A stretch of 64,000 nt of DNA from Paragorgia papillata (taxonomy: Eukaryota > Cnidaria > Anthozoa > Scleralcyonacea > Coralliidae), in NCBI GenBank assembly GCA_035771165.1, contig JAWNZC010000372.1:1459501-1523500 (forward strand), given 5' to 3'. The position numbers were made by a program, and so were the translations under genes. Shown piece after piece: positions 9,475-55,069 of this stretch. The notes under the pieces were generated by a model. The model was given only the letters and a program-made list of their open reading frames with translations. It did not search any database and had not been told where the DNA came from. How positions within the stretch are numbered: the first letter of the stretch is position 1; every line of letters starts with the position of its first letter.

Positions 9475-12400
9475 CTAAATAAAATTTGAATGTAATATTA
9501 AATACATTTTTAGATAAAAAGAGAATTCAGTGACGTGGTTTCAATTATAGGACTGACATTTGACCAAACGAGTCATTTAAATACCTAAACACTTACGGAC
9601 TGTTTTATGTTTTTTCCGTGTTAAGGCAGCCTTTTCAGCACCTTTTTTTCTTCGCTCCATGGTTCCCTTTAGATGTTCCACTTGCATTAAAACTTCTTCA
9701 ACGGTCAACAATCCCTGCTTAGCAACAGACTCCAACTCGACTCTTGGCATTTCATTCCCTTTCTTTAAAGAATTGTAGACCTTTTCCTTGATTAGTACAC
9801 TTGGTGGCTTGTACATAAACTTAGTGGTATCATACGCCAGATCTTTTACAAAAGCCAAGTGGTCTTCAGGCTTAAGATAATGGCCAGAACACACACCAGA
9901 GCACTCGACACATGATCCACCCCATTGTCTTTTAGGGTCTGGGATCGGGAAAGGAATGTAAGACAAAGGTGGTCCAGATTCAAACCAATATGACTCTTTC
10001 ATCGCATTATGACACAGGGGATGTGTACATTGTTGCTTGTAGCAAAGAGTTAGTACGAAGGCGTACTGTGTCGGGATTTCAGAATTCATATGGCTCTGAC
10101 GTACAGCCCACACTCGCTCAAAGTGTTGATAAAGACTTGGATTGACTGCTCTCAACTCTTTCTTCTGATCTGGTTTTCCTCTCAGAAAAATTAACAATGC
10201 TTCTCTCCTTTCCGTTAGGGATGAATGCTTTCCTCCTTTAAAAAGCTGAATGCTGGTTCCGCAGCATGGTGCCCCATTAACTCGATCGATATACACGTCC
10301 GTAGCCAGGTCTACGTTTTCGGTCAGCTTCTCTTCATCCAGACCATTGGCATTAAAGTTACTACCGGCAAGAGTTGATGGGATGTACAGATTGGCATGCG
10401 CCTTTGCAATACACCCATTCATGAGCTCAACTGGGTTTAAGTAGGAGCCACCGCTATGTCTGGTTGTGACAACGGTGCAGATCTTCTGTTTAAGAATGTG
10501 TCGTTCTGTCCACAGGAACTGGACTTCCGCATGCCCTGGTCCTTCGTCTCCTGCTCCATCTACTCGTATACAATCGATTGGTTTCGCACTTAAGTAGCTA
10601 GGTGTCTTCGTCTCCAACATGTTTAAATCAATGTAGTGCTGAGTGGGAGACTTTGGATGAGTGAAGTGCGGTTTCACGATTCCAACGCAGGCTTTTTCTG
10701 TTGTCTCGGTGTCCAAAAACAAATATGACGATGTTTGAAGAAGAGATGGATATTTGTTCACAAAATCAGTTCTTGTGGTGAGTGAAGGTTGGCTTTCCAG
10801 AGTGATACACTTGCCTTGTTTGTGGGTGAAGGTTGTATCGAGTCAAAACCCGGCTTGGTTGTCTCTGTTCAACAACACTTTTTCCCTGCCTTCTTTCAAC
10901 TGGATGTAATCAATACCCCTGTAAAAAGCACTACTCCAGTGTGCATCTACGTTAAGTTTTACCGCGAATCCCTTTCGAGCTCTACGGCATGTGACTTTGG
11001 CAATACCCTTATATTAGCTGATAAACGTCGCTTGCTTCTTATAACACAAAGTTGGACCACAGTCCCATAACTTATTTTGCAGCGATATTTTTCCTGGAGA
11101 TGACACTGAATACTTTTGTAGGTAACTTTCTTTCCCCTGCAGCGAGAACCATCGAACGTCAGCACGCCTGTTCGTCGCCAAGCATCAGCCCCTACTCTTT
11201 TCGACTTGACAAATTGCTCAATATCTTTCCCGATATTTGGAAATTCTTTGACAATCCGGCTTGTTCTCTTCGGAAACTTTCTTTTAAGGATGCTTCGGAC
11301 TGCTAACTGATTAGCAACGTTCCGTTTTGCCTTTTGTTTAATAGCTCGGCGCACTGTCTGGATACGTTCTTTCGCATTTCCACACCACCGAGTAATCTCT
11401 TGGTCATGAGCTTCCAGGTGATCAGAATCAGACTCAGAATATACAGATTCACCATCTATCATCAACGGTTGTCTGCACTGATATTCAATAAATTGTTCAT
11501 GGGAAATCTTTACCTGGGCCAATTCTTCCTCAGTTAGGCTAGACTTTGAAAGATTACTTGCGAAGACAGTTAACAGTTCATCGAGCTCCTCGTCGCTCAG
11601 ATGCTTTAAACGTAGCTGAAGTCCGTGATGAAATAAAAACCAATTTAACTCGACTTCTTTTAACCATAGCAGCAATTTTTCAATGGTAGGTGTTTCGCTT
11701 GCGTCTTTGTTAAATATTTCTATAGGAGAGGTGTCGTTTGATCCCAAGCTATTTTCCACCTGCTCCATATCGCTGTCGAGACAATCGGTGTCTGACTCAG
11801 ATTCATCAGACTCGGATTCACTTGAAATATCTTTTGGTATTCCCAGGGAGTTGAGAAGAGCTGTATCTTCCAGAGTTGCAAGCTCCATAACTGATTTCTG
11901 TACTTCACTTGCCATCGACATTGCCTGGTTCACCTTGTCAACATTTCTAGCATTGTCATCAATACCATACGCTAATCTTGCTTGTTTTGCAGACTGCCCC
12001 CAAGTTGCTACATACTTCAGTAACTTCCTATCCGATTCAGTGGATGCCAACTGACAAAGAGACGTAAGGGTCTCCTTATCTAGCCGACATCCAACGTTCT
12101 TTTCAGGTAGCATACTTGGGAGCAGTTCTGACAATAATTTGTAGTCCACATCTGGTCTCTTCTCTGCAACAAACAAGAATTCCCCCTTTAAAATTACTAA
12201 AGGTAACTGCAAAAGGCGCTGGACTGCTTTGTCTGACTTGTACAATTGGGTTGGAAATTGTTTCTTAAACACTTCAGATACTTTCGCGATGCCTTCTTTC
12301 AAGATACAGGACGCCATATTAACCAACGCAAAACATTCTCCACAACAACCATTGTGACACCTTTTACAATATTCGCTTCGATAAACAATGAACTCTTTTA

Positions 12401-14193
12401 AAGAAACGGCACACATTAAAGAAACATATAGCCCATCTTTTAGACGGCACAGGCTGATATCACTAAGTTTTAGACGCACATTTGCAACAAACGTTTCATA
12501 TTTTTCTTCTTCAAAATTAGTAGAGCCCACCAATGTATCTGCACATGTATCTAGCATTTCAACACTGGTGGCTCTATTAAAAAATTTTGTTCTTCTGGTA
12601 AGACGTCTCCAGGCACGTTGATTGGGATGTCAACTATCGTTTCCGAAGTAACAGACTGATCTGAGGGTCGCTGATCTGGTGGTAGGCAGCAGGTGACTTT
12701 TGGCGATTGATCACCACTGGGATCCACTTCTTTAGGCATCACATGCGAGTCGTTGTTTGACGAAACAGCCTTGTTATTTATCTCTTGGTGTAGTTCGTCA
12801 GCAGTTTCAATAAGTACAGCAACATCATCATCTTTGCTTTTTGAAGGCTGGGTCTGCGGTAAATCTGCTTTCTTCAGGAACTGTGTTAAGGTCTGGGATG
12901 CTGATACTTTCTTATTTTTTCCAATACACTTCTTTACACGTTTACTTGCTGCCTCTTTACTCTGAAGCAAATCTAATTCTTCCTGATACTTCCTTTTTTT
13001 CTTTCGGAGGTCGTCAATTTGCTGCGACACTTCTACTGCTTTGCTAAAATTGTTCACATTTGCACACTTATCTCTTTGCTGCAACGAAAAGCTCAACTGT
13101 AGATCTACTTCTTTTACATCCTCTCGCAATTGTGTCAGTCGCTTTTGCCGAAGTTCCTGTGTGATGTTTTTCTTGGTAGAACTAGAAGATTCTGGTCTTC
13201 CAAAGTGCCTTGACCTGGAACTCCCTTTTTTATATTGGAAATCCGTATTGTGAAGCTGCTCTCTTGCTTTGTTTTTTAATTCTTGCTTGTTCTTCAAAAG
13301 GGATGGATCTTTAATGGCTTCGGCGAAACAAGCCTCATTCATTGCTTTGTGATATTCGAAAAGCTTGTCATCAGACTTCAACGTATAAATTTGACTTTCC
13401 TTGCGGATTTTCTCAACATCTACCTTAATGGTTTGCTGGTTTATTACAGACACTTCCCCAGCCTAGAGAAAACAAGTATAAATAAAATAAAAATAAAAAT
13501 TAATTAATTATTAATTATTATATTAATTAATAACGTTATGGGAATCCCAAATCTCAAGCAAGAATTGTAAATAGTTTTAGGGGCGCAACAGCTAGATTTA
13601 GTATCTGGCCAGATAGCGAATCATTTCACTATCCACTAACAAGCTGGATCATCCCTATTATTGGCTGATCATTTCTGTTATCCAGCTGGATACAGGAGAG
13701 TTTATTAACCCATTTTTTATTTTATCTATTTCAAATACTAGAAGTTATCAATGTAAGGAAGTTGCTGCCTAACACAAAATTGTGTGCCTGACAGGGGCAC
13801 CACACAGGCCAAAGTGGACATTGTATATCATCATAATTATACTGTAGCTCTTGTGAAACGTTTAACAATTTTAATGTGAACCATTGATGTCTTTCCTTCT
13901 TACTCCACCTCCCAGTAGTTACAAAAAAGTACAAAGAGCCAAAGAACCATGGGCAATCACAAACATTAGACAAAGGACTAAACATATAATTAAAAAACCT
14001 GCATACAGTATGTGACAATTTCCAGTGAAAGACTAAAGACTAAAGTGATGTATGTATTAAATTTTGTATAATTAAGGCCTCTCCCTACATATGTAATACA
14101 TATATAATTGGCTTGTATATTTACACATAAGAAGTACATGTAACTAAAAAGTACAGACAGTGTATAAAACATCTTTATATATTAACAGCTTAC

Positions 14194-24180: not shown

Positions 24181-25084
24181 TATTCAAAGGTGAAAGGGTC
24201 TTTAGCACTCGATCTCACATTCCAAATTTTGGCCGTGCACCATTGCACCAACACCAACCTGAACTTTCTATTTTTCGATTTGTGTTTCATTTATTGCATT
24301 TCAGTTTGTTTAAATATAAATTATGTATATATGACTTAATGACTATGAGTGATATAACATGTTTAGTACTTTTCAAATCTAGTTCACTACGACAATTAAT
24401 TCTTATAAATATATATATATATATATATATATAATACATATAGGCATTAAACAGAAGTATAACTTTCGTTATCTGTCATGTGTACAGCCGCTGACCGGAA
24501 GTAGTAGATTACTTCCTGTTTGATTTTTTTGGCGTGCATTTTTTTACCAGTTTATCTTCCGCGCGCACTTTGCAAAGAATGAAGTCTGGGGTAAATCATC
24601 TTTTGCTGTTTCGCTTTACTTTGTCCTCTCCTGATTGATGGTTAATTATTATTATTTGTCTATTGCTACAATTCTACTCTTAAACATTGAATTATTAGTT
24701 ATAGTTTTTAATATCATAGTTCTTAATATCGTGTTGTTTTTACCAATGTACTTTTTGAACATAGAGAACTTTGCTTTTTTTTAATAACTCATGTATAATC
24801 AAGTTTTTTAGATTGCGTTGTTTCGCAGTCTACCAGTTGATTGTTTAATAAATTCAATTCAATTCAAAGATAGTTCTTTTATTTAAAATATTGAGTGGTT
24901 TGTAAGGCATAAACATACTTCACGGCATACTATTACGTAGATTTCAACTATAATCATACATTGACAAAATTGTTGGAAGCTAACAGCTTAACATGAGATG
25001 GTTTAATGCTCCCCCTGCTTCAATGTTGTGAAACTCAAAACATGCAATTTGCACTCAGACATCTGCCATTAATACATATAACAT
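24181..25084. other. Intergenic; probable 3' end of a retroelement
   Basis: TA tract at 24406-24432. The segment 24640-24866 ends GTTTAATAAATTCAATTCAATTC, which looks like a LINE/SINE 3' tail with a short ATTCA repeat. No coding part of it is visible. Confidence 0.4.
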
Positions 25085-25099
25085 CCCTTACGAAAAAAT

Positions 25100-25440
25100 C
25101 CTATAGGAATTCCTATAGAAAATCCTATAGGAATTCCTATAGGAATTTCTATAAGATTTTGGCCCAATTTCCTATAGGAATTCCTATAGGAATTCCTATT
25201 GAATCCTATAGGAATTCCTATAGGAATTCCTATTGAATCCTATAGAATCCTATAGGAATTCCTATAGAATCCTATAGGAATTCCTATTGAATCCTATAGG
25301 ATTTCCTATTGAATCCTATAGGAATTCCTATAGGATTCAATAGGAAATCCTATAGGAATTCCTATTAGATTTTGCCCAAATATCCTATAGGAATTCCTAT
25401 AGGATTTCCCATTAAATCCTATAGGATTTCCTATTGAGCA
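25100..25440. repeat. CCTATAGGAATTCCTATAGG palindromic array (end of copy A)
   Basis: About two dozen overlapping CCTATAGG and GGAATTCC half-sites, self-complementary at every scale. Variants with TTGAATCC break the register. The same array forms both ends of copies A and B. Confidence 0.9.
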
Positions 25441-25734
25441 AATCCTGTGGAAATTCATCAGTGAGAGAAACAAAGCAAGTTCTCCTTACGAAAATATCCA
25501 ATAGAATATTCCATAAAAAATTATATAGAATATTCTATTAGATTTTGGGATGTATTCTATTGGATTCTCTATGGAATATTCTATAGGATATGCTATAAGA
25601 TGTAATAGAAATTCTTTAGAATATTCTATAAGCTATCTTACAAGATATACAATAGAACAGTCTTTGGAATTCTACAAGATACTCTACAAAACATTTTATC
25701 AATAGTTACGCAGTACAATATTCTACATTAACAC

Positions 25735-26045
25735 ACCTTTTTTGTCCAAATGTTAACACACCTTACGTTACGTTTTCTAACACACCTTAAGTGTTGAAAG
25801 GCACACCTTATGGTATGTTAAAAAACACATCTAGTAAGGTTTTTTTTTTGGCTTGTCCAAACTTTGACACACCGTAAGTTGTGTTTTGTGAAAAGGTGTG
25901 TTATTTCACACACCTTGGTACGTTATATAACACATGTTAAGATGTGTTATATATAGGTGTTAATAAAAAGGTGTGTTATGCAACATGCCCTGATGTGTGT
26001 TATCTTACACATGTAGGTGTGCATAATAACACACCCTGAAACATG
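25735..26045. repeat. AACACACCTT/AAGGTGTGTT block
   Basis: At least ten copies of a decamer like AACACACCTT in both orientations, so the block can fold on itself. The matching block in copy B is at 38430-38820. Confidence 0.8.
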
Positions 26046-26457
26046 TCATTCAGCACATCAATGACCAAGAGAAAATAAACATTTTTAAAAGCATTTAACA
26101 TTAATGTCAACATATTCAATATATTTTAACACATATTTAAAAACTGTGAGGGTTTACATCAGGATGACATTAAAGTATACACTTACTATAATAAATACTA
26201 GTTATATACATGGTATATGGGGCGATTGTCATAAGCAAACCATTTTTGGCAGTTCAAATTCCCAAATATTAACTAAGCTAAAAATCCTAACCATGTTACA
26301 TGTATGTGGTTCTGCATCTATATCCAAAATACATCATTCAGCATTTAGGAATAGGATACTACATTACATATTTAGAATGTTGGTATTTTCAAAGTGTACT
26401 TAACAACAATCCAATCAGCAATGACACAAGGGAACATCAGTGTAATCATCTTGGACA

Positions 26458-26525
26458 TCAACAATCCTTTTCTTTCATTGAGAAGTTGGCTTTCGCATCA
26501 TCACTCAATGTGTACCAGTCCAGTC
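26458..26525 (-). ncRNA. Third conserved exon of copy A transcript (start 26525)
   Basis: The minus strand shows CATTCTACAG then GACTGGACTGGTACACATTG. In the third frame it reads LDWYTLSDDAKANFSMKEKD then a stop. The acceptor is conserved in copy B at 37977/37978, but copy B has a short deletion in the exon that destroys the frame end. The 3' boundary is not determined. It could be a short coding exon or a non-coding one. Confidence 0.4.
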
Positions 26526-27259
26526 CTGTAGAATGAGAAAATTAGTTCAACAATTTGTTAACTAATATTTAATTAAATCAAATATTTAAAGGTATACATT
26601 AACCACTTTGCAACAAAACTCAAAATTTCAATTTATAAGCTAAAATTTTGATTTTGTTGTGATTTTTCTTTGTTTAAATAGTCAATCCATTTAACCCATT
26701 GATGCCTACAATAGGGTGTCTGAGGAATCATCTGCTGATAAACATAGTAAAACAATAAAGGGGACATTATTGGCTGGCTCAGGCAGGAATGGGTAATAAT
26801 CATTTGACTCAATACCATTGCTACCTCCCCTTTAGAGAGTAAAATCATGTGGAGTGTAAATTAATGTCAATACATGTATTAAACATATACAAAGTATATA
26901 TATGACTTAATCTTCCATCATATACTGTATCACAAATGGGCTCTCAGTAATGACCTACTAACTAGCTGACTAGCTTCCCAGGGTCAAGAGTAAGATTCCC
27001 TCCCAAGTTCACATTCCTCCAAAGTACAAGATTGCAGTTACCGAACAAACAATTTGGACAGAAAATTCTACTTTCCTTAGCAGAATTCTTATAATTTTGA
27101 AGACAATTAGAATATAGGGATGTTCAGTAAGGTATAAGGAATATGCAGTATCTGTATATCACTAAAATTATACCAAATGAATATTATTAGTATTATATCA
27201 GTTTGTCTTATTAATCAAACTGTTCAACTTTCTAAAATATCCAGATGTGTGATCTGTGT

Positions 27260-27266
27260 TTTAGCA

Positions 27267-27317
<51 letters not shown>
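27260..27317. repeat. (TA)n microsatellite
   Basis: About 28 TA units inside copy A. The matching position in B is next to the hAT MITE. Confidence 0.85.
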
Positions 27318-27477
27318 CAGAAACTTACTAGTGTACTATTGCAAATGCTGTCCACTCTCATCAGCTATTCACTCAGAAATTTTGAGCTCATAATTTAATT
27401 GTTAAATATATATACTGTAGAAGATGTTGTAAAAACCTTTGGCAGAGTGCTCGATGGGAATCCAGAGCATATTATAG

Positions 27478-27671
27478 TTAAAGTTCAAAGACTCAACAGG
27501 TTTGATTAGACATTTTATTACTATTTAGTTTCGTGCCACAAATATTGTGCGCGTACTCTTCGGATAAAATGGTCTAACCATTTTATCTGAAGAGTACCAC
27601 ACAATATTTGTGGCACGAAACTAAATAGTAATAAAATGTCTAATCAAACCTGTTGAGTCTTTGAACTTTAA
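27478..27671. mobile_element. Near-perfect 194-bp hairpin element
   Basis: Arms of about 95 bases starting TTAAAGTTCAAAGACTCAAC pair almost without mismatch around a 3-4 base loop (GGT CTA ACC). A diverged single arm of the same element is present in copy B at about 35993-36045, where a LINE fragment cut it. Flanked by TATATA. MITE-like, non-coding. Confidence 0.85.
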
Positions 27672-27720
27672 GTATATATATATATATGTATGTTAAGAGT
27701 GAAGTTTGTAGCTTGGTGTA

Positions 27721-27990
27721 ATATGAGTAAAATTTGTTCGCAAGCTTTTTATACTCAGAAAAATGTCTGAGTATCCCTGACAGGATTCGAACCCGCGACC
27801 TTCTGATATCCAGACAGACGCTCTGCCGACTGAACTACTGGGACTCAGACAGTAGTGAGAAGGATAAATCAAAGGTCACGGGTAATAAGAAGGTAATAAG
27901 AAGGTAAGATAAGATAATAAGAAAGATAAGAATCCTGTCAGGGATACTCAGACATTTTTCTGAGTATAAAAAGCTTGAGAACAAATTTTA

Positions 27991-27998
<8 letters not shown>
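27721..27998. mobile_element. Foldback element built around a tRNA-like sequence
   Basis: Left arm (27721-27789) and right arm (27930-27998) are inverted copies, including GTCTGAGTATCCCTGACAGG against CCTGTCAGGGATACTCAGAC. The left arm holds the 3' half of a tRNA-like sequence (27773-27844). The loop continues with the rest of it and an A/G-rich run (AATAAGAAGGTAATAAGAAG). It is absent from copy B, so it was gained by A after duplication, or lost by B. Confidence 0.75.
27773..27844 (-). tRNA. tRNA-like sequence or tRNA-derived SINE head (72 nt), anticodon position GGA
   Basis: The minus strand has a 7-bp acceptor stem GTCCCAG/CAGGGAT with one A-A mismatch and one G-U. The A box is TAGTTCAGTCGG, the D stem GTTC/GAGC, an anticodon arm TCTGT-CTGGATA-TCAGA (last pair mismatched), and the B box GGTTCGAATCC. 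Anticodon position reads GGA, which would be Ser, yet there is no long variable arm. That, the mismatches and the foldback context argue for a tRNA pseudogene or SINE promoter rather than a working tRNA. Confidence 0.55.
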
Positions 27999-28035
<37 letters not shown>

Positions 28036-28166
28036 CATACAGTTAGACCAATATATGACCTGTAATTAGTACTTTGAGATATCAACATAGGAATAGATCA
28101 TTATGTCATTACTCAATAAATAAGCTACTAGTATATGAATTAAGGTTATTTAAGGATTTTACTTAC

Positions 28167-28232
28167 CAATATAAACAGCAAGTTGAATTAAATGGTTGAA
28201 CACAACTGAACACGGTAACTCTACCCTATGCA
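28167..28232 (-). ncRNA. Second conserved exon of copy A transcript
   Basis: TTTTCTAG precedes the exon and GTAAGTAAAA follows it (minus strand). Copy B has the same exon at 35083-35151 with the same splice sites. Neither has a long open frame. Confidence 0.5.
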
Positions 28233-28284
28233 CTAGAAAACAAGAGAAAATAATATATGAAATGAATAAGCAAACAAACAAACA

Positions 28285-28311
28285 AACACGCACACACACA
28301 CACACACACAA
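28285..28311. repeat. (CA)n microsatellite
   Basis: AAACAAACAAACAAACACGC followed by ten CA units, inside copy A. Copy B has a shortened TGTTTGTTTG tract instead. Confidence 0.75.
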
Positions 28312-28748
28312 AACATACTGTTAGTTTGTTAACAACAATTTAATATTTCATATTAATGATGATGAATTCTGCCTGTGATTCAGTGAAAATACGCTAATCA
28401 CAAATAACTTTTACCTCAAAATCTGAATGCTTTAGTTTTACATAAGATAATCCTTATCATGAAAGCAACGGTGGCTAAAGAATGGCAAAAAAGGTAGAAT
28501 GATTTGAGAGTTTGTTAGGAACCACAATTGACTAAATTGAGAAGAGATTCCAACCGCCATGTTCACGAGTCAAAACTAGATGATGACTTAATACCAAACA
28601 TTGACTTCAACAGTTCAACTACACTAACTTCAGTATAAAATGGTTTGTATTGGACAATCAAACAGGAAATTTGACGAGAGCCAAAGAAAATTTCACATTA
28701 CAATAAGGAGGACAATAGAAAACAAACGATAAATACTCAATCTCTTAC

Positions 28749-29100
28749 CTTGCTCGTAGCCTCGTGCGAGAGAAGCTTCTAGGACTTTATTGGTTCAACT
28801 GGATTTTCATGGCTTTTAGTTAAATCTTTCCGTAAGAACATGTTACTTCGGTGAGGACTGTCTGCCTGATCTCTTCGCAAACAAAAAGTATTTTATTACC
28901 AAAAGTTTCCATAGCTTGAATCTCAAAAGCCAAAACACCATCACAAATTAATTTCAAACGTGGCGCGCTGAGATGAGAATCGAAAATGAAATGACGCTAT
29001 CGCAAGTATCAATGCGACAATGCGCGCTCGCTATCTGCGCGGTTTCGTGGCTGCATGCGCCTGGGTACGACACTGGCTAGACGGAGCCTCTCTGGTGACT
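28749..29100 (-). ncRNA. First exon and CpG-rich start region of copy A transcript
   Basis: The minus-strand CpG-rich segment (about 29100-28970) leads into sequence ending CTACGAGCAAG before GTAAGAG. In copy B the same exon ends at 34595. Short frames exist in both copies (one starts METFGNK, 30 codons) but none is long. The 5' limit is estimated. The structure suggests a transcribed, spliced element RNA; its coding status is open. Confidence 0.45.
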
Positions 29101-29782
29101 GCGCTGTTTAGCCAGAAGTTTTATTACCTGTAGCCTTTCTTTCTGAATTCTGATACGCTATTCTGTTTCAAAATTACACTCCCATATTAATTCGGAATTA
29201 TGGCAATGGTCTGATACTGCGGAATGTGGTTGAAGAACCGAACTAATGGCAATTTTTATCTTGATATGGAATTTCAGGTCTGTCTCAACTGCTTTTTGTA
29301 TGGAAATAAAATTATTTTAGACCAACGACCAAAATGTTTGCTAATAATATTTATTTTGTAATTTGGCCAACACAAATTTTAATTCCTATAGGAAGCGTAT
29401 TTTCCTATAGGAATTCCTATTCAAATTCCTATAGGAAAATTTATTCCTATAGCAACCTATAGGAATTCCTATAGGAAGCATATTTTCCTATAGGAATTCC
29501 TATCAAATTCCTATAGGAAAATTTATTCCTATAGCATCCTATAGGAATTCCTATAGGAAGCATATTTTCCTATAGGAATTCCTATTCAAATTCCTATAGG
29601 AAAATTTGTTCCTATAGGATCCTATAGGATCCTATAGGAATTCCTATAGGAATTACAAATTCCTATAGGAATTCCTATAGGATCCTATAGGATTTTTTCG
29701 TAAGGGATGTTTAGATTAACAACATTGAAAGGGGTGTGTGACAATTTACTTGACCTAAATGTAAAAGGGATTACTGAAAGGG

Positions 29783-29995
29783 ACCCATCCAGTCCTTGCG
29801 AGGCTTTTCCAAACTACAATGTATGTTGTCAAATTTGTTTTAAGATTTTAGCAATCTTGATAACCTAACAACAACAAAAACTCTAGCCGTAATCAGAAAT
29901 CTGGTTTACTGTCTAGGTTTTTGGAAAAAAACAGTGTATTTGACAACATACAGTATTTTGGAAAAGGTGCAAAATGAATGGATGGGTCCATTTGA
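29783..29995. repeat. Foldback element between A and B
   Basis: GGGACCCATCCAGTC...TTTTCCAAACTACAATGTATG faces the inverse CATACAGTATTTTGGAAAAG...GGATGGGTCC. Imperfect arms of about 50 bases. Confidence 0.55.
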
Positions 29996-31228
29996 GTCAT
30001 CGTGCTTATCAATTAGCATGGCATTACTTGCTCAAGTTGTTTCAACTAATCTTGGTAATGATTGTAGGCTCATCATGAAAAAAAAATTACATTGTGTTAC
30101 AGAGAAAGTAGAAGCAGGCAGCAGGCAGCAGGCAGCTTCTACTTTTTGGAATGCTACATGACAAGTTGCAGTGTGTAACACTTCCACTGCAACTTGCTAC
30201 ACATGTCATAGTATGACCCAGGCTGTAATCAGGTTCATTTGTTTGGAAAATGTTTTTTTGATTATAAAACAATTTTTTTCAAATCTTACAAAAAGATCTT
30301 ACAGCAAAAAGTACATTCTGCTATTATAAGGTCTTTATACACTTTATTGCTTGTTGGCCACCTTTCATTCTACTGTAGCTGTTAAATAAAACGTCAGGCA
30401 ATTTTATTTGATGTGGAAGAGTACCTGGATTAAAAGGGGTTAAGATATTATAAGTCATCTTCACTAACTACAGTAGAATAATATTTTCTAGTGTGTTAAT
30501 GATTTATACTGTATCTTCAAGGATTTTGTTATAAGCTAGTGAACTCCGGTAGCTGCTTTCCACATCATCCCTGCCTATTAAGTTAAATTTTGTTAAGTAT
30601 TCAGATATGGTATCAGCTTTTAGCTTAGTCACTGTTCAAAATTAATGAAACTCCTGGTTGTATACAGTAGAACAAAACATTTATTAACAAATAATGCCAT
30701 CTTGGAAACTCAAGATAAGAGTTAAAACAAGTGAAATAATTTTACAGTAGTTGCAATTGTTTTTAACTCGACTACCTTGGGTTTTCAGGATGACATTATT
30801 TTTTTAAATATGTTTTATTCTATACTTTTTCAACTTTCAAGTTGTCAGCTGGTCTTGGTTCCTGATTGTATGTCATTTCCATTTTCTAGTCTAGTGTACA
30901 ATGTACATTGACACCAAATGCATTATTGGAGTTGGATAGTAAAAATATTGGTAAGTAATTTCTTGGTGTAATTGCCATGATGTAAGTGTAAGTGTCTGGA
31001 GAAACTTGAAAAACTAGTGTATATGTTGTAACTGTAAGAATTAGCCATGTCTTTTTTACAAACCCATTCTAGAGAAAGGACAAAACATGAAACTCCTCGA
31101 CCCGGTTACCTCAACAGAGTTTACCAGAGGTCCATGTTTTCTCCTCTCCTCATTTAGAGTAGTATCAAATTAGTTGGTTGGTACATGTGAATATTTTTTA
31201 ATTTCTGTTTTACACCAGTACTGCAGTA
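29996..31228. other. Spacer between A and B, no gene seen
   Basis: AT-rich. A GGCAGCAGGCAGCAGGCAGC tandem and a GTTGCAGTGTG/CACTGCAAC hairpin occur at 30110-30200. No splice-supported frame found. Confidence 0.35.
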
Positions 31229-31231
31229 TTA

Positions 31232-31554
31232 GAGGATGTTTACACGAGGCTGGCCCGAACTCAGGCCAGACTGACTTTAGGTTGGTTGTAGTGTTTTTAC
31301 TATAGATCATTTTCATGAGTCCGGTCTGAGATTCAGTTTACGCCGGCCTAATCTCAGGTTGCCCACTATGGTGTCATATTCACATAAAATAATGATTCTC
31401 TGGTGGTGACAAGCTCTAAGCCAATTGACACAAATCTTGAAGCAACAGCGAAACCAAGCCTATAATAGTTTCAAGGCCAGCCTCATGTAAACAAAAACTG
31501 AAATGCAAAATTCAGGCCGGTCTGAGTTCAGGCTGGCCTCATGTAAACACCCCC
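31232..31554. mobile_element. PIF/Harbinger-like MITE with TTA duplication
   Basis: Ends GAGGATGTTTACACGAGGCTG and the inverse CAGGCTGGCCTCATGTAAAC plus ACCCCC are complementary with a few mismatches. TTA lies directly outside both ends (31229-31231, 31555-31557). Further CAGGCC/GGCCTG words make internal stems. Family assignment rests on the TTA duplication. Confidence 0.6.
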
Positions 31555-32115
31555 TTACTTGAATCGATTACTGCATTAATTTTGTATCACCAGTTTGTAA
31601 AATTAGATGCAAGATGTACATAATGGTTTTAGAACAATTAGCCTCGTGTTTATATTATCAGCTATAATCAAATGCTAGATCATTTTTTATGTTATGTCAT
31701 GAGAGGCTGTCTAAGCAAGATTAAGTGAAGACCTACAGTACATGTATCTTAATCCATTTCTACTTTAATGTTTTATTGTAGTTAACACAGAAATGCAGGA
31801 ATGGTTCAACAAAGAATTTATACATTCCTAGATTTCACTTCACAGTAGCCATGTTACTGCTTATAGCAAAATTTAGCAATAGTTTGATTTAGGAAAAGGG
31901 TAGCAATGGGTTAAGTTGTTAGCAGGTAATGTCTTTAATTTCACATTGTATTAATTGATTTTCTCCTTTTATTTCCAGGATATGTTAGTCAAAGTTTTCA
32001 ATTTGTGACAAGAGCTACATGATACCAAATGCAATTTTTTCAAAAAATAAAGACAAAAAGGAAACATTCAAGAAAACAAAAGAAGGAAAGAAGTGAAAGC
32101 TGAGTAGACAGTCTT

Positions 32116-32245
32116 TGAATGAATGAATGAATGAATGAATGAATGAATGAATGAATGAATGAATGAATGAATGAATGAATGAATGAATGAATGAATGAAT
32201 GAATGAATGAATGAATGAATGAATGAATGAATGAATGAATGAACA
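32116..32245. repeat. (GAAT)n microsatellite, about 32 units
   Basis: An uninterrupted tetranucleotide tract of about 130 bases. It produces an artificial FIHS-repeat frame on the minus strand that is not a gene. Confidence 0.97.
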
Positions 32246-32415
32246 TTATATTAAATTAATAAATTATTATACTTGTAGATAACTGTATTTATTTGAAATT
32301 GTATTATCTTAAGCATTGACTGGATAAGTGACAACTTTTAATCGTTGTTTGAGTTGCATTTCAATTTTAGCCGTAATAATATGCATGACAAAATTACAGT
32401 ATGACAAAATTTATA

Positions 32416-32580
32416 TTAAGCTATTTATTATTTAGAGTTGAAATGGACCTTTTCCTTAAGTACATAATAATAAATATACTTAATTATAAAATTTTTTTGT
32501 TAAGCTATTTATTATTTAGAGTTGAAAGGGACCTTTTCCTTAAGTACATAATAATAAATTAATATACTTAATTATAAATT
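32416..32580. repeat. About 84-bp tandem duplication
   Basis: TTAAGCTATTTATTATTTAG through TTAATTATAAA is present twice in direct order with few differences. A local duplication, no gene. Confidence 0.8.
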
Positions 32581-32877
32581 ATATGTAGTTTAAGAAATCA
32601 TAACATTTTTAATGTGTTTGCTATATTATACTGAAAATAGCTTTGTATTATAGTGTTCACATTAAGCGATAGTTTTGTAGTGAAATTAACAACATTAACA
32701 TTGTTTACCTTACATTAAACAATTGTGATTGGCTAAATTTGTTGATTTCGTGCAATCGTGTGAGAGCCACACATGTCATAGAAAGGTATTTGATAGATTC
32801 AATTTAATAAAACTATAATGATTTATTGCAACTGTTCAACCGCAAGGGTTCAAGTGACACAGGATCCAACAAATGGT

Positions 32878-33112
32878 TTTTCTATGGGTAACAAATCTAA
32901 CCATAATAACTCGTACAGAATTTCCATAGTTTTCCCATAGTTTGCAGCAAAAGTACTGAATATATGGCAATACTATGAAACTCCATATAATTCCCATAAG
33001 GAATGTGGCAAAACCATATCTACCCCATGTATTAATAGGCCATAGTTCAACCCATATTTTTCCCTTACTTGGGCCATATATGTCCCATATCCCATGTTTG
33101 GTAAGGGTATAC
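32878..33112. repeat. CCATAG-rich foldback relative
   Basis: ACAGAATTTCCATAGTTTTCCC and many CCCATA/TATGGG words in both orientations. Same family as 17545-17785. Confidence 0.5.
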
Positions 33113-33307
33113 TTCTACATAACCTCACTTGGCACCATGCATTACGTGCAGGAGATTGATTGGCTTCACATTGAAACATTTAACAACACGTAAATTATAT
33201 GGTAACTATACTTCCACAACATAACAACACATGCAGCTGTTCAAAACATTTAATAAGTGGCAGATCTTAAAACGCTGAAGAGCAAGAGAGAGTCTTCAAT
33301 GCCATAA

Positions 33308-33704
33308 CCAATATCACAAGAACAACATCTTCATACCACTCAGAGCATATTATTGGAAATGTATTCTTACGACTTCAGGCAGAAAAAAATCTTAAAACTC
33401 ACCAAACGTCCACTTCTGACAAGCAAGAAGCCCATCTTTCAAAACTTGCATTTTCATTGCCATGGTTTGGAAACACCATCATTCAACGACAAATGCTTGT
33501 CAACTGCTCTTCAGCTTGGCAAGCACACCTAGAAAGAATTAGAATGAGAATGATGACATTGAATTTTTTTATGCCAAGGGAAACACCGAAGCTGTTCCTG
33601 AAGGACCGGTTCTGCACCATTTTCGCTCCAGTAATTTCAAAACCAAAGAGGCCAGCTATTTGAATGCTGGCAAATGTGCTTACAAAACAAATCACAGTTA
33701 CCAG
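33308..33704 (+). pseudogene. Coding remnant interrupted by copy B (5' part)
   Basis: From 33308 to 33529 one frame reads PISQEQHLHTTQSILLEMYS ... LSTALQLGKHT then TAG. From 33543 a shifted frame reads NENDDIEFFYAKGNTEAVPE ... KCAYKTNHSYQ and ends exactly at the boundary of copy B (33704). Composition and lack of stops over about 130 codons suggest real coding sequence with one frame break near 33530-33542. The family is not recognised. Its continuation is at 39192. Confidence 0.45.
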
Positions 33705-35082
33705 CCCTTACGAAAAAATCCTATAGGATCCCATAGGAACAAATTTTCCTATAGGAATTTGAATAGGAATTCCTATAGGAAAATGTGCTTCCTATAGGAA
33801 TTCCTATAGGATGCTATAGGAATAAATTTTCCTATAGGAATTTGAATAGGAATTCCTATAGGAAAATATGCTTCCTATAGGAATTCCTATAGGATCCTAT
33901 AGGAATAAATTTTCCTATAGGAATTTGAATAGGAATTCCTATAGGAAAATACGCTTCCTATAGGAATTAAAATTTATGTTGGCCAAATTACAAAATAAAT
34001 ATTATTAGCAAACATTTTGGTCGTTGGTCTAAAATAATTTCATTTCCACACAAAAAGCAGTTGAGACACACCTGAAATTCCATATCAAGATAAAAATTGC
34101 CATTAGTTTGGTTCTTCAACCGCATTCCGCAGTATCAGACCATTGCCATAATTCCGAATTAATATGTGAGTGTAATTTTGAAACAGAATAGCATATCAGA
34201 ATTCAGAAAGAAAGGCTACAGGTAATAAAACTTCTGGCTAAACAGCGCCGTCACTAGTGCAGAGGCTCCGTCTAGCCAGTGTCGTACCCAGGTGCATGCA
34301 GCCACGAAACCGCGCAGATAGCGAGCGCGCATTGATACTTGGGATAGCGTCATTTCATTTTCGATTCTCATCTCAGCGCGCCACGTTTGAAATTAACTTG
34401 TGATGGTGTTTTGGCTTTTGAGATTCAAGCTATGGAAACTTTTGGCAATAAAAGACTTTTTGTTTGCGAAGAGATCAGGCAGACAGTCTTCACCGAAGTA
34501 ACATGTTCTTACGGAAAGATTTAACTAAAAGCCATGAAAATCCAGTTGAACCAAGAAAGTCCTAGAAGCTTCTCTCGTACGAGGCTACGAGCAAGGTAAG
34601 AGACTGAGTATTTATCGTTTGTTTTCTATTGTCCTGCTTATTGTAATGTGAAATTTTCTTTGGCTCTCGTCAAATTTCCTGTTTGATTGTCCAATACAAA
34701 CCATTTTATACTGAAGTTAGTGTAGTTGAAGTCAATGTTTGGTATTAAGTCATTTAGTTTTGAACATGGCGGTTGGAATCTCTTCTCAATTTAGTCAATT
34801 GTGGTTCCTAACAAACTCTCAAATCATTCTACATTTTTTGCCATTCTTTAGCCACCGTTGCTTTCATGATAAGGATTATCTTATGTAAAACTAAAGCATT
34901 CAGATTTTGAGATAAAAGTTATTTGTGTTAGTGTATTTTCACTGAATCACTGACAGTCTGAATTCATCATATTTATGAAATATTAAATTGTTGGTGACAG
35001 ACTAACAGTATGTTTTGTGGGTATATGTGTTTGTTTGTTTGCTTTAAATTCATTTCATATATTATTTTCGCTTGTTTTCTAG

Positions 35083-35151
35083 TGCATAGGGTAGAGTTAC
35101 CTTGTTCAGTTGTGTTCAACCATTTAATTCAACTTGCTGTTTTATATATTG
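35083..35151 (+). ncRNA. Second conserved exon of copy B transcript
   Basis: Preceded by GTTTTCTAG and followed by GTAAGTAAAA. Same exon as 28167-28232 in copy A, three bases longer. Confidence 0.5.
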
Positions 35152-35422
35152 GTAAGTAAAATCCTTAAAAAAGCTTAATTCATATACTAGTAGTTTATTT
35201 ATTGAGTAATGACATAATGATCTATTCCTATGTTGATATCTCAAAGTATTAATTACAGGTCATATATTGGTCTAACTGTATGTCTTTTATATATATATAC
35301 AAAGTATGAATATATATATATATATATATATATTTAACAATTAAATTATAAGCTCAAATTTTCTGAGTGAATAGTTGACGAGAGTGGACAGCATTAGCAA
35401 TAGTACACTAGTAAGTTTCTAC

Positions 35423-35936
35423 TAGAGATGAGCCGATCGCTAAAAAGTACCGATAGCCGATTCGATTAATCGGCGGCCGATCACGGCACATAATCGGCCG
35501 ATTAATCGGCCAAAGCCGATTAATTTCGTGTTGTTAATTACAAAGATGTCGTTGAGGAATTCACTGACATTCGTACTTTGGTAGTACTTTTCTGTCGCTT
35601 GACTCTGAATTTTGCCGATTTGCGTGAAAATACGTTATTTAATTCTCGCGTTAGGACACTTCTCTCAAATTTTGGGGGTTGAAAAATAAATCGCTATGTC
35701 GGTAAATAGTAACGCGATGAGCGATTTACACGCTTCCAAATCCATGAACTGAAGAAGACAGCGAAGAAACGAGAAGACAGCGCTAATTTCAAGTATTTTC
35801 GTAAGATGAAAGAAAAACTCGTACATAAACGGCAAAAAGCCGATTATGCGTTAATAATCGGCCGATTACCGATTATTGAAAAAAGGCCGATTATCGGCCG
35901 ATTAATCGGTTAACCCGATTAATCGGCTCATCTCTA
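35423..35936. mobile_element. hAT MITE with perfect 8-bp target duplication
   Basis: Ends TAGAGATGAGCCGATCGC and GATTAATCGGCTCATCTCTA are inverted. GTTTCTAC is duplicated directly outside (35415-35422 and 35937-35944). The ends are rich in CGGCCGATTAATCGG palindromes. The matching position in copy A carries a single GTTTCTGC and no insert, an empty site. Termini of the TAGAGATG type and an 8-bp duplication are diagnostic of hAT. No coding sequence; 514 bp. Confidence 0.93.
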
Positions 35937-35941
35937 GTTTC

Positions 35942-35977
<36 letters not shown>

Positions 35978-36045
35978 CGACTATATATATAACGACTCAA
36001 CAAATTTGATTAGGCATATTTATTACTATTTAGTTTCGTACCACG

Positions 36046-37182
36046 AGATACATACATACATACTTTATTTCAACACGCTAGCCTCAACAACAATAAATGC
36101 TGATTTCAATGAGGGGCGTGCTTAATTTAACTAATACAACAAATTGACTAATACTAATACTAATAAGCTAATTACAATAACTAATAAACAACTAGGAAGT
36201 TTACAAAGTTAAAAGATTTATAAAAATGATGATGATAAAATGAATAAATTTATAATTGAGAGTGGCGTGATTCAACTTCATCTCATGGTCGGCCCTATAA
36301 GCCTTTTAAAAGAATCCAACGACTCTGCTTGTTTCGCTTCGTGTATTAAATTATTCCAAAGCATGGCACCGTTATATTTAAAGCTTCTTCTGAGAAATTC
36401 TCTCTTTGGCTTTGGGAGTACTAAATTAGTATCATTGTTCCTTAGATTATATGTATTTTGATATTCATTAACTTTTCGAAAGGATTCTTTTAAATCTGGC
36501 GCGGTATAGTCGTTGAGTATTTTATACATGAAGACTGACTTTGTATAAGTTCGTCTTACATCTAAATTTTTCCAAGAAAGGGTTTCGAGAACGTCAGCCG
36601 AACGGATTTCGTAACTGCTCCCGGTAATTACTCTTGCCGCACGAGATTGAAATTTTTGCAATTTATCCTTCAGCAGTTTTCCGCAATTGTCCCAAAGATG
36701 AGAGCAGTAATCAAAATAAGGTTGTACTAAGGCTTTATATATAACTTGCAATGTATCAGTTGGTACAAAAGGCTTAACGCGTCTAATTGCTCCAATGCCC
36801 GCGCCGGCCTTCTTGCAAATTGTTTCAATATTCTTTTCCCAACTAAGTTTCTCATCTATCTCAACTCCCAAGCATTTATAAGTATCAGTTCTCGGAACCG
36901 GAACATTATTAAGACAGGATGATCGCATACCTTATTACTGAGATTATACGAAGATCCAATAAACATATATCTTGATTTAGTTGGATGGATTTGAAGCTTG
37001 TTTTTCACCATCCAATTATGAATATTAATAAGATCTGAATTTAAATTTGCAACAAGCTCAGCGCAGTCACGCGAAGATGAGAAAATTTGGGTGTCATCTG
37101 CATATAGACATGGGGTTGTTGATTTTAAGCAATCTGGCATATCATTTATATACAACAAGAACAACAACGGCACTCTTCAGTG
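36046..37182 (-). mobile_element. 5'-truncated LINE fragment inside copy B
   Basis: On the minus strand it begins in the RT after motif B (VPLLFLLYINDMPDC), passes motif C (CLYADDTQIF, catalytic DD intact), a frame change near 36900, then VEIDEKLSWEKNIETICKKA and SRAARVITGSSYE, ending near 36278. The 3' end is AATAAAGTATGTATGTATGT, a (GTAT)n tail. It interrupts the second arm of the hairpin element described in copy A. RT clade CR1/L2/jockey-like; different subfamily from the other copies in the window. Confidence 0.85.
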
Positions 37183-39191
37183 AATATATATATATATATA
37201 TATGCATGCTAAAAACACAGATCACACATCTGGATATTTTAGAAAGTTAACCAGTTTGATTAATAAGACAAACTGATATACATGTAATACTAATAATATT
37301 CATTTGGTATAATTTTAGTGATTTTAGTGATATACAGATACTGCATATTCCTTATACCTTATTGAACATCCCTATATTCTAATTGTCTTCAAAATTACAA
37401 GAATTCTGCTAGGAAAGTAGAATTTTCTGTCCAAATTGTTTGTTCGGTAACTGCAATCTTGTACTTAGGAGGAATGTGTGAGTATGTATGTGACCTTTGG
37501 AGGGAACCTTACTCTTGCCTCTGGGAAGCTAGTCAGCTAGTTAGTAGGTCATTACTGAGAGCCCATTTGTGATACAGTATATGATGGAAGATTAAGTCCT
37601 AAATATACTTTGTATATAATGTTTAATACATGTATTGACATTAATTTACACTCCATGATTTTACTCTCTAAAGGGGAGGTAGCAATGTTATTGAGTTAAA
37701 TGATTATTACCCATTCCTGCCTGAGCCAGCCAATAATGTCCCCGTTATTGTTTTACTATGTTTATCAGCAGATGATTCCTCAGACACCCTATTGTAGGCA
37801 TCAATGGGTTAAATGGATTGACTATTTAAACAAAGAAAAATCACAACAAAATCAAAATTTTAGCTTATAAATTGAAATTTTGAGTCTTGTTACAAAGTGG
37901 TTAATGTATACCTTTAAATATTTGATTTAATTAAATATTAGTTAACAAATTGTTGAAATAATTTTCTCATTCTACAGGACTGGACTGGTACACATTGAGT
38001 GATGATGCGAAAGCCAACTTCTCAATGAAAGAAAAGGATAGATGATTACACTGATGTTCCCTTGTGTCATTACTGATTGGATTGTTGTTAAGTACACTTT
38101 GAAAATACCAACATTCTAAATATGTAATGAAGTATCCTAAATACTGAATGATGTATTTTGGATATAGATGCAGAACCACATACATGTAACATGGTTAGTC
38201 TAGGATTTTTAGCTTAGTTAATATTTGGGAATTTGAACTGCCAAAAATGGTTTGCTTATGACCATCGCCCCATATACCATGTATATAACTAGTATTTATT
38301 ATAGTAAGTGTATACTTTAATGTCATCCTGATGTAAACCCTCACAGTTTTTTAATATGTGTTAAAATATATTGAATATGTTGACATTAATGTTAAATGCT
38401 TTTAAAAATGTTTATTTTCTCTCGGTCATTGATGTGCTGAATGACATGTTTCACGGTGTGTTATTATGCACACCTACATGTGTAAGATAACACACATCAG
38501 GGCATGTTGCATAACACACCTTTTTAATATTAACACACCTATATATAACACATCTTAACATGTGTTATATAACGTACCAAGGTGTGTTAAATAACACACC
38601 AAGGTGTGTTTGAAAACCGACCAAGGTGTGTCAAATAACACACCTTTTCACAAAACACAACTTAGGGTGTGTAAAAAATTTGGAGAAGCTAAAAAAAAAC
38701 CTTACTAGATTAGATGTGTTTTTTTAACATACCATAAGGTGTGCCTTTCAACACTTAAGGTGTGTTAGAAAACCTAATGTAAGGTGTGTTAACATTTGGA
38801 CAAAAAAGGTGTGTTAATGTAGAATATTGTACTGCGTAACTGTTGATAAATGTTTTGTAGAGTATCTTGTAGAATTCCAAAGAATATTCTATTGTATATC
38901 TTGTAAGATAGCTTATAGAATATTCTAAAGCATTTTCTATTACATCTTATAGCATATTCTATAGAATATTCCATAGAGAATCCAATAGAATACGTCCCAA
39001 AATCCAATAGAATATTCTATATAATTTTTTTATGGAATATTCTATTGGATATTTTCTTAAGGGGAACTTGCTTTGTTTTTCTCACTGATGAATTTCCATA
39101 GGATTTGCTCAATAGGAAATCCTATAGGAATTCCTATAGGAATTCCTATAGGATTTTCTATAGGAATTCCTATAGGATTTTTTCGTAAGGG

Positions 39192-53660: not shown

Positions 53661-53691
53661 ATGGGTGACATCAAAAACAGAAGAATATCTA

Positions 53692-55069
53692 CAATCCTGG
53701 ACAAAATTGTTGGGCCACTTTGCCGATTTTGACGATTTTCGCATAGTGTCCCAAGCACTTTTCTCCAGGATTGTCTGAAAATGACGAATTAAACAAAATC
53801 GAAGAAAAAACAATTTGGGGGCGGCGATTCTGCGCAGTTTGCTCGAAAAAGACATAAATACGCTCCCACATGCATGAACAACAAATTGTTTGTGGGGTAT
53901 AGAAGGTTTGGTGAATATGCAAATTAAATAGAGCTCTCGTGCGGGTGGTACCGGTGCGGGTGGGAACTCTGCAGAGACTCTGCTCCAGTGATCCCTTCCC
54001 CATTGAGGGGGTAAGGGGGAGCAGAGATGGGGGCTCTTTTATTAAACTGTATATATTTTGCAATGTTACAAAGTTAAAAAGCTGTGTTTTATTGAAAAAT
54101 CATAAACTCGTCATTTTCAGACAATCCTGGACAAAATTGTTGGGCCACTTTGCCGATTTTGACGATTTTCGCATAGTGTCCCAAGCACTTTTCTCCAGGA
54201 TTGTCTGAAAATGACGAATTAAACAAAATCGAAGAAAAAACAATTTGGGGGCGGCGATTCTGCGCAGTTTGCTCGAAAAAGACATAAATACGCTCCCACA
54301 TGCATGAACAACAAATTGTTTGTGGGGTATAGAAGGTTTGGTGAATATGCAAATTAAATAGAGCTCTCGTGCGGGTGGTACCGGTGCGGGTGGGAACTCT
54401 GCAGACACTCTGCTCCAGTGATCCCTTCCCCATTGAGGGGGTAAGGGGGAGAAGAGATGGGGGCTGTTTTATTAAACTGTATATATTTTGCAGTGTTACA
54501 AAGTTAAAAAGCTGTGTTTTATTGAAAAATCATATAAACTCGTCATTTTCAGACAATCCTGGACAAAATTGTTGGGCCACTTTGCCGATTTTGACTATTT
54601 TCGCATAGTGTCCCAAGCACTTTTGTCCAGGATTGTCTGAAAATGACGAATTAAACAAAATCGAAGAAAAAAACAATTTGGGGGCGGCGATTCTGCGCAG
54701 TTTGCTCGAAAAAGACATAAATACGCTCCCACATGCATGAACAACAAATTGTTTGTGGGGTATAGAAGGTTTGGTGAATATGCAAATTAAATAGAGCTCT
54801 CGTGCGGGTGGTACCGGTGCGGGTGGGAACTCTGCAGACACTCTGCTCCAGTGATCCCTTCCCCATTGAGGGGGTAAGGGGGAGAAGAGATGGGGGCTGT
54901 TTTATTAAACTGTATATATTTTGCAGTGTTACAAAGTTAAAAAGCTGTGTTTTATTGAAAAATCATATAAACTCGTCATTTTCAGACAATCCTGGACAAA
55001 ATTGTTGGGCCACTTTGCCGATTTTGACGATTTTCGCATAGTGTCCCAAGCACTTTTGTCCAGGATTGT
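53692..55069. repeat. 432-bp tandem array, three full units and a partial
   Basis: Units start at about 53692, 54121, 54553 and 54986 with ACAATCCTGGACAAAATTGT and differ by only a few bases. Each unit opens with a small foldback of about 95 bases (ACAATCCTGGACAAAA... ...TTTTGTCCAGGATTGT), then AT-rich DNA, an ATTTGCAT octamer (minus strand) and a GC-rich CGGGTGGTACCGGTGCGGGT. Repeated frames of about 79-114 codons on both strands are by-products of the array and I do not call them genes. The array interrupts a LINE endonuclease domain. Confidence 0.92.

Follow-up and report, generated by a model that had tools for sequence, protein, structure and literature searches.

The 64,000-nucleotide stretch of the Paragorgia papillata genome analysed here (the window; contig JAWNZC010000372.1, positions 1,459,501 to 1,523,500) contains two facing copies, A and B, of a repeat with palindromic ends. 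Judged from their sequences, A and B are non-autonomous TRC-type elements, which belong to the animal branch of CACTA/EnSpm. This placement follows from their CCC tips, the 2-bp target duplication, and the kinship of both ends with a transposase-bearing 9.3-kb element. The two copies are probably TRC-type cut-and-paste insertions that were mobilised in trans by two-gene relatives, in which a BEN-domain protein encoded beside the transposase is the predicted binder of the palindrome arrays.

A and B belong to a dispersed repeat family

An earlier interpretation made from the DNA letters alone (the sequence-only reading) had proposed that A and B are inverted copies of one element with identical 20-base tips and a shared order of blocks. 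The exact 20-base tip was found four times in the window, at 25085(+), 29706(-), 33705(+), and 39191(-), compared with 0.02 expected, and two more inner copies of the tip carried 3 mismatches each. The perfect terminal inverted repeat was 24 bp in A and likewise in B. The alignment of A with reversed B gave three long blocks in the same order with 92.9-93.9% identity. These results agree with the proposal on both counts.

To place the pair in its genomic context, the window's own genome (617.9 Mb) was searched; C-numbered places are positions in this genome, and L-numbers denote stretches that were compared. The tip (at most 2 mismatches) was found at 227 + 243 = 470 places, compared with 1 + 1 = 2 for the reversed control, so the tips are not confined to this locus, a possibility that the sequence-only reading had raised. 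Tip pairs were drawn from 100 listed places of the 470, among which 31 converging pairs lay less than 17 kb apart, 24 of them spanning 3.0-5.9 kb and seven spanning 7.3-15.9 kb. The CCCTTACG tips, which begin with CCC, were present at each terminus of A, of B, and of 24 further copies. Over a core stretch of 1.3 kb, which 22 of the 26 copies span, the mean identity was 98.6%; identity to the copy majority was 99.5% for A and 96.6% for B, the most divergent copy. The number of array motifs varied across copies (4 to 17 and 7 to 22), whereas the tips were constant. We conclude that A is a complete non-coding TRC-type (animal CACTA) element, that B is an older member of the same family, and that the two are separate insertions from one repeat family. 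The inner tip (at most 3 mismatches) was found at 157 genome places (control 0), and its exact motif was present in 24 of the 26 copies. The inner tip was considered as the end of a separate family and rejected; by eye, many of the 100 listed places lay inside A-type copies.

When the flanks of A, B, and the 31 listed pairs were compared, the 2 bp on the two sides matched in 26 of the 33 tip pairs, as opposed to 119 of 1056 when flanks from different copies were paired (p 4e-19). A is flanked by AT|AT. One 2-bp match alone is weak (11% by chance), and it is the family tally that carries weight. The duplicated dinucleotides were AT (7), TA (5), AA, CA, and TT (3 each), and also CT, GT, AG, AC, and TG; there were thus ten different dinucleotides, with AT accounting for 7/26. 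A 3-bp flank match was found in 0 of the 33 tip pairs, and the longer flank matches in L021 (5 bases), L030 (4), L033 (13), and L034 (4) are probably repeats in the flanks. The statement in the sequence-only reading that no direct target duplication is seen thus failed for these 26 pairs, A among them, but held for B.

Eight complete copies were examined for coding capacity, and no reading frame longer than 105 amino acids (aa) was found. In L033-L048, which comprise the seven long tip pairs and four stretches with a single tip, the frames above 150 aa belong to nested other elements and not to a transposase of the Transposase_21 kind, as judged by eye from part of the output. The earlier description of two inverted copies of a real element with no transposase inside was upheld. 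In viral contigs, neither the 22-base tip nor the transposase had a match, and the string CCTATAGGAATTCCTATAGG was not found in the literature searched. In L035/L036 (G000:C23:481119-493451), an unrelated element of ~7 kb is nested in an A-type copy; it carries a 479-aa integrase-like frame (by eye), and ~9 bases of the copy are repeated at its edges.

Transposase-bearing relatives share tips, arrays, and both ends with A

A variant tip, CCCTTACGAAAAAATCCV, was present at 8 genome places (control 0). Among the four loci examined, L051 was A-like and L049, L050, and L052 were not, and palindrome arrays stood behind the tip in all four. The transposase profile was PF02992 (Transposase_21), to which A and B themselves gave no match. 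L050 contained a 614-aa frame that matched this profile above the cut-off (6.5e-11). The L049 frame was in two pieces, one matching PF02992 above the cut-off (8.9e-8) and the other matching DUF4218 below it, with 64% and 54% identity to the L050 frame. The L050 frame had 430 homologues, and those of Dendronephthya, Lingula, sea urchins, and fish were among the 120 listed.

In the genome, the L050 frame gave at least 79 matches (72 of 489 candidates scored), which were merged into 70 loci. Tips within 2 kb of a transposase match numbered 2 of 100 for the A-type, 3 of 8 for the CCCTTACGAAAAAATCCV variant, and 1 of 49 for GACCCTTACGAAAA (GAC), compared with 0.07, 0.005, and 0.03 expected for the listed tips, and all six lay on the 3' side of the match by strand. 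The pattern GACCCTTACGAAAA occurred at 49 places, few of them A-type, versus 6 in the reversed control, which suggests that the tip is common to additional families.

The sequence-only reading had called for a search for an autonomous relative, and the search yielded a transposase-bearing element with both tips in the same genome (C91:2135392-2144712, 9.3 kb). This element has an A-type tip at one end, a one-base variant tip at the other, and AT|AT flanks; its ends (L055 and L056) were read, and the middle ~5.6 kb was covered by searches. Its transposase-side end was similar to the right end of A (E 2e-68), and its other end, on the BEN side (L056), was similar to the left end of A (E 7e-49), with agreement at 45 of the first 46 positions and the non-palindromic AATTTCTATAAGATTTTGGCCCAATTTCC also in common. 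These similarities pair each end of A with a different end of an element that bears a transposase. The C91 element also has two BEN matches towards its non-transposase end, 1.2-1.7 kb from the tip there; they run on the other strand than the transposase match.

Other superfamilies were considered and rejected. Plant-type CACTA (En/Spm) has CACTA tips and a 3-bp duplication, and the family here has CCCTTACG tips and no 3-bp match. ISL2EU (PHIS), considered for its 2-bp duplication, is described with an AT duplication and tips that are usually GG (PMC4482050); it was excluded because the CCC tips and the ten dinucleotides are unlike it. The profile PF13359 gave at least 151 genome matches (150 of 1145 candidates scored). 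Coral CMITEs have been linked to piggyBac (PMC2872659) and do not fit A and B.

BEN-domain matches lie near some of the transposase loci

In L050/L053, a BEN frame and the transposase are on opposite strands, and the BEN frame is ~8.3 kb away from the tip. The L053 BEN domain matched PF10523 with 43.7 bits (cut-off 23.2; profile positions 2-51 of 76), and its solved relatives were BEND6 (7yul, 8e-6) and RE55538p (4ix7, 8e-4), the latter of which we take to be Insensitive. When a guessed join of the L053 gene was compared with proteins (764 candidates), one partial Paramuricea protein was obtained (E 4e-10). By eye, this protein aligns with the segments that precede the BEN domain and stops at that point; no Pfam BEN domain was found in it. 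A similar-looking first exon of the BEN gene was seen by eye in L049/L054.

Genome-wide, at least 121 BEN matches were found (150 of 209 candidates scored). At least one BEN match lay within 12 kb of 21 of the 70 transposase loci, compared with 0.35 expected at random, although some of these BEN-linked loci depend on one another: a single BEN match serves two of them at C268, and the pair at C409 looks like a duplication. The order was divergent in 17 of the 21, with BEN on the 5' side and the opposite strand. At C23, a BEN match at 1.1 kb and a transposase match at 7.5 kb follow behind an A-type tip. What is new here is the linkage of BEN matches to TRC-type transposase loci, mostly in divergent order, together with the TCCAATTGGA arrays of one relative; among the literature matches listed, none joined a BEN domain with CACTA/EnSpm. 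At G000:C409:775558-793741, seven BEN matches lie on one strand within 18 kb, and a transposase locus lies at 767694, as if the BEN exon were repeated in tandem beside the transposase locus.

The palindrome arrays are candidate BEN docking sites

The L050 end has four TCCAATTGGA in its first 150 bp, and CCWATWGG was absent from the 8.8 kb of L050 beyond position 400. In A, 15 TCCTATAGGA lie in one end and 17 in the other, each within 340 bp; outside A and B, CCWATWGG was found once in 49.7 kb of the window. The fly BEN protein Insensitive (Insv) binds TCCAATTGGA and the variants TCYAATHRGAA (PMC6911014), and its BEN domain binds CCAATTGG as a dimer (PMC6317261), as described in the cited passages. 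The subterminal repeats of plant En/Spm are occupied by TNPA, which is required along with TNPD; other CACTA elements have non-homologous binding proteins (PMC2613891). By analogy, a BEN protein encoded by the transposons may dock on the arrays (TCCTATAGGA in A and B), as the putative counterpart of TNPA.

In the proposed mechanism, related two-gene elements would supply the transposase and the BEN protein in trans to A and B. Cleavage at the CCCTTACG tips would be the task of the tnp2-type transposase. The BEN protein would occupy the array palindromes as dimers and bring the ends together for that enzyme, in the way TNPA acts on En/Spm subterminal repeats. A and B would persist through retention of tips and arrays. 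We lean slightly towards a broader version, namely one animal CACTA lineage in which a BEN protein, in place of a plant-type TNPA, is the end-recognition factor; its elements would have the BEN gene in divergent order next to the transposase and many copies of the BEN target palindrome in their ends, and the palindrome (TCCAATTGGA/TCCTATAGGA) would shift as the protein diverges, with host BEN regulators such as Insensitive perhaps being domesticated relatives of transposon end-binding proteins. If the proposal is right, a bizarre-looking palindrome-armed repeat would be explained, its ends being arrays of protein docking sites, and a young, non-coding 4.6-kb repeat family would receive a superfamily. 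BEN domains, which are familiar parts of repressors and chromatin boundary factors, would acquire a role in transposition. Since the gene and many copies of its target would sit together in each coding element, one could test directly whether a DNA-binding domain and its target co-evolve.

Weighing the evidence and alternative explanations

Several observations weigh against the proposed origin and mobilisation of A and B. The flanks of B (AG vs TC) have no 2-bp match, and B is one of seven pairs without one (B, L013, L018, L023, L034, C42, and C127); C127 holds parts of two copies, so some of the failing pairs may not be true pairs. The transposase match of the C91 element contains a stop, and no second tip of L050 was found within 9 kb. 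Comparison of the A core with L049, L050/L053, and L052 gave short matches only, the best being to L052 (E 0.002, 80 bp, 71%), followed by two to L049 (E 0.005), one of 26 bp next to the array and one of 23 bp where the inner tip lies. With 150 of 209 BEN and 72 of 489 transposase candidates scored, no BEN match was found within 12 kb of 49 of the 70 transposase loci, including L049, C100, and C413, the last of which is 97-99% identical to L050. Finally, TCCTATAGGA/TCCTATAGGAA is off the published Insv variant TCYAATHRGAA at one position (by eye).

The tips, the duplication, and the transposase linkage would also fit if A and B were TRC-type non-autonomous elements whose arrays are bound by the transposase itself, with the BEN gene serving repression or insulation of the element or another role. 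Repression and boundary function are known roles of BEN proteins (PMC6911014), and the transposase loci with no BEN match nearby also speak for this explanation. However, the arrays consist of BEN-target-type palindromes, one relative has the exact Insv target, and plant CACTA elements use a separate protein on their subterminal repeats (PMC2613891). We regard direct binding of the arrays by the transposase as rather unlikely, and array binding by a BEN protein is preferred.

A foldback-type explanation, in which the palindromic ends form cruciforms and the 4-kb spacer is inverted through the joint action of A and B, appears very improbable. Foldback elements and Galileo of Drosophila have long structured ends, inverted pairs, and non-coding copies, as A and B do; they have other transposase families and longer duplications, whereas the tips and duplication of A and B fit TRC. 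Both ends of A fold strongly as single strands (z = -17.0 and -21.8 versus 100 dinucleotide shuffles), in accordance with the composite, foldable ends described earlier, and the two copies are inverted. Strong folding is, however, what palindrome arrays do, and constant tips with variable arrays fit protein sites at least as well. In addition, A retains its matching 2-bp pair. An inverting exchange between A and B would split this pair, so the spacer inversion suggested by the sequence-only reading is unsupported, although the 2-bp match could be due to chance. The hairpin or cruciform spanning 14 kb that it envisaged likewise gave way to two dispersed members of a 470-tip family. The chance that A and B are an assembly artefact, with one locus or two alleles placed twice, is close to nil: their high similarity in inverted orientation speaks for it, but their identities to the copy majority differ (99.5% and 96.6%), the insertions of B are missing from A, no flank similarity was reported in the window self-comparison, and 470 tips are found elsewhere.

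Comparison with known systems

According to the cited passages, CCC tips, 2-bp duplications, and Transposase_21 are features of the animal TRC elements described from Schistosoma, Aedes, and Tribolium; of 14 SmTRC1 copies, 7 had the 2-bp duplication (PMC1636069). SmTRC1 and its relatives resemble the A/B family in CCC tips, 2-bp duplication, and inverted repeats of tens of bp, and in Transposase_21 via the coding relatives of A and B (PMC1636069). Unlike TRC, A and B are non-coding and have long TCCTATAGGA palindrome arrays as ends; the coding relatives here have a divergent BEN gene, and the cited passages of the TRC account make no mention of BEN (PMC1636069).

En/Spm and other plant CACTA elements resemble the A/B family and its coding relatives in the tnp2-type transposase and repeated subterminal motifs and, if the proposed mechanism holds, in a separate DNA-binding protein for these motifs and in deletion derivatives moved in trans; they differ in their CACTA tips and 3-bp duplication, compared with CCC and 2 bp in the A/B family, and BEN would take the place of TNPA by analogy (PMC2613891, cited passages). 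The Drosophila Insensitive/ELBA proteins share the BEN domain and TCCAATTGGA, as in the L050 end, but they are described as host regulators, not transposon proteins, and A and B carry TCCTATAGGA (PMC6911014, PMC6317261, cited passages).

Organisation of A and B and other observations in the window

The order along A was TCCTATAGGA array, inner tip, AGAATATTCT array, AACACACCTT array, core, and second TCCTATAGGA array (Table 1). The CCTATAGG motif was counted 16 times on the left and 18 times on the right of A, and 4 and 13 times in B. B is interrupted by insertions, namely a block rich in AATCGG repeats and a stretch with a 217-aa frame that has no Pfam family and by eye looks like part of a non-LTR (long terminal repeat) retroelement. 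In the spacer between A and B, a perfect TGAA repeat of 32 copies is located at 32116-32243.

Table 1. Coordinates of copies A and B and their parts in the window
Feature	Position	Strand	Basis
Copy A	25085..29706	+	tips; 24 further full-length copies aligned; 99.5% to copy majority over core stretch
Copy B	33705..39191	-	tips, nested insertions; 96.6% to majority; flanking 2 bp differ
Left half of A target duplication (AT)	25083..25084	.	flank comparison
Right half of A target duplication (AT)	29707..29708	.	flank comparison
Left palindrome array of A, unit TCCTATAGGAAT	25099..25434	+	tandem repeat; similarity to L056
Inner tip-like sequence of A	25483..25502	+	3 mismatches vs tip
Second array of A, AGAATATTCT-type	25553..25689	+	tandem repeat
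Third array of A, AACACACCTT-type	25730..26040	+	limits by eye from sequence
Non-coding core of A	26041..29380	+	conserved splice-like sites on minus strand
Right palindrome array of A, 82-bp higher unit	29381..29692	+	tandem repeat; similarity to C91 element
B array matching right array of A	33719..33968	-	A/B alignment, tandem repeat
B array matching left array of A, shortened	39090..39181	-	tandem repeat, motif count

On the minus strand of the A core, three exon-like pieces are conserved together with splice-like sites. Four splice-site patterns were exact in 26, 24, 24, and 19 of the 26 copies, the first 5' site being exact in 26/26. A coding core was considered and rejected; the frame joined by eye was short and had no start codon. 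The splice-like sites and a CpG-rich block of the core (minus strand; 26450-26530, 28168-28240, and 28749-28900) might be what is left of a transcript, or else a host promoter that the element captured. A tRNA-Ser-like sequence lies at 27771-27844 (minus) in the core, and the same stretch appeared in the translations of several other copies; being common to them, it looks like an old insertion of the SINE (short interspersed nuclear element) type in the family. A near-perfect 213-bp inverted repeat (94%) at 27469-27681 in A is, by its look, a separate small nested element.

Outside the two copies, three long frames (421, 556, and 303 aa) without a Pfam family are located at 9577-13462 (minus). 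The 556-aa frame has 68 relatives, the best 69% identical, in Paramuricea, Porites, and others, and looks like an undescribed mobile-element protein. At 53691-55069, ~3 tandem copies of a unit of ~430 bp are 98-99% identical.

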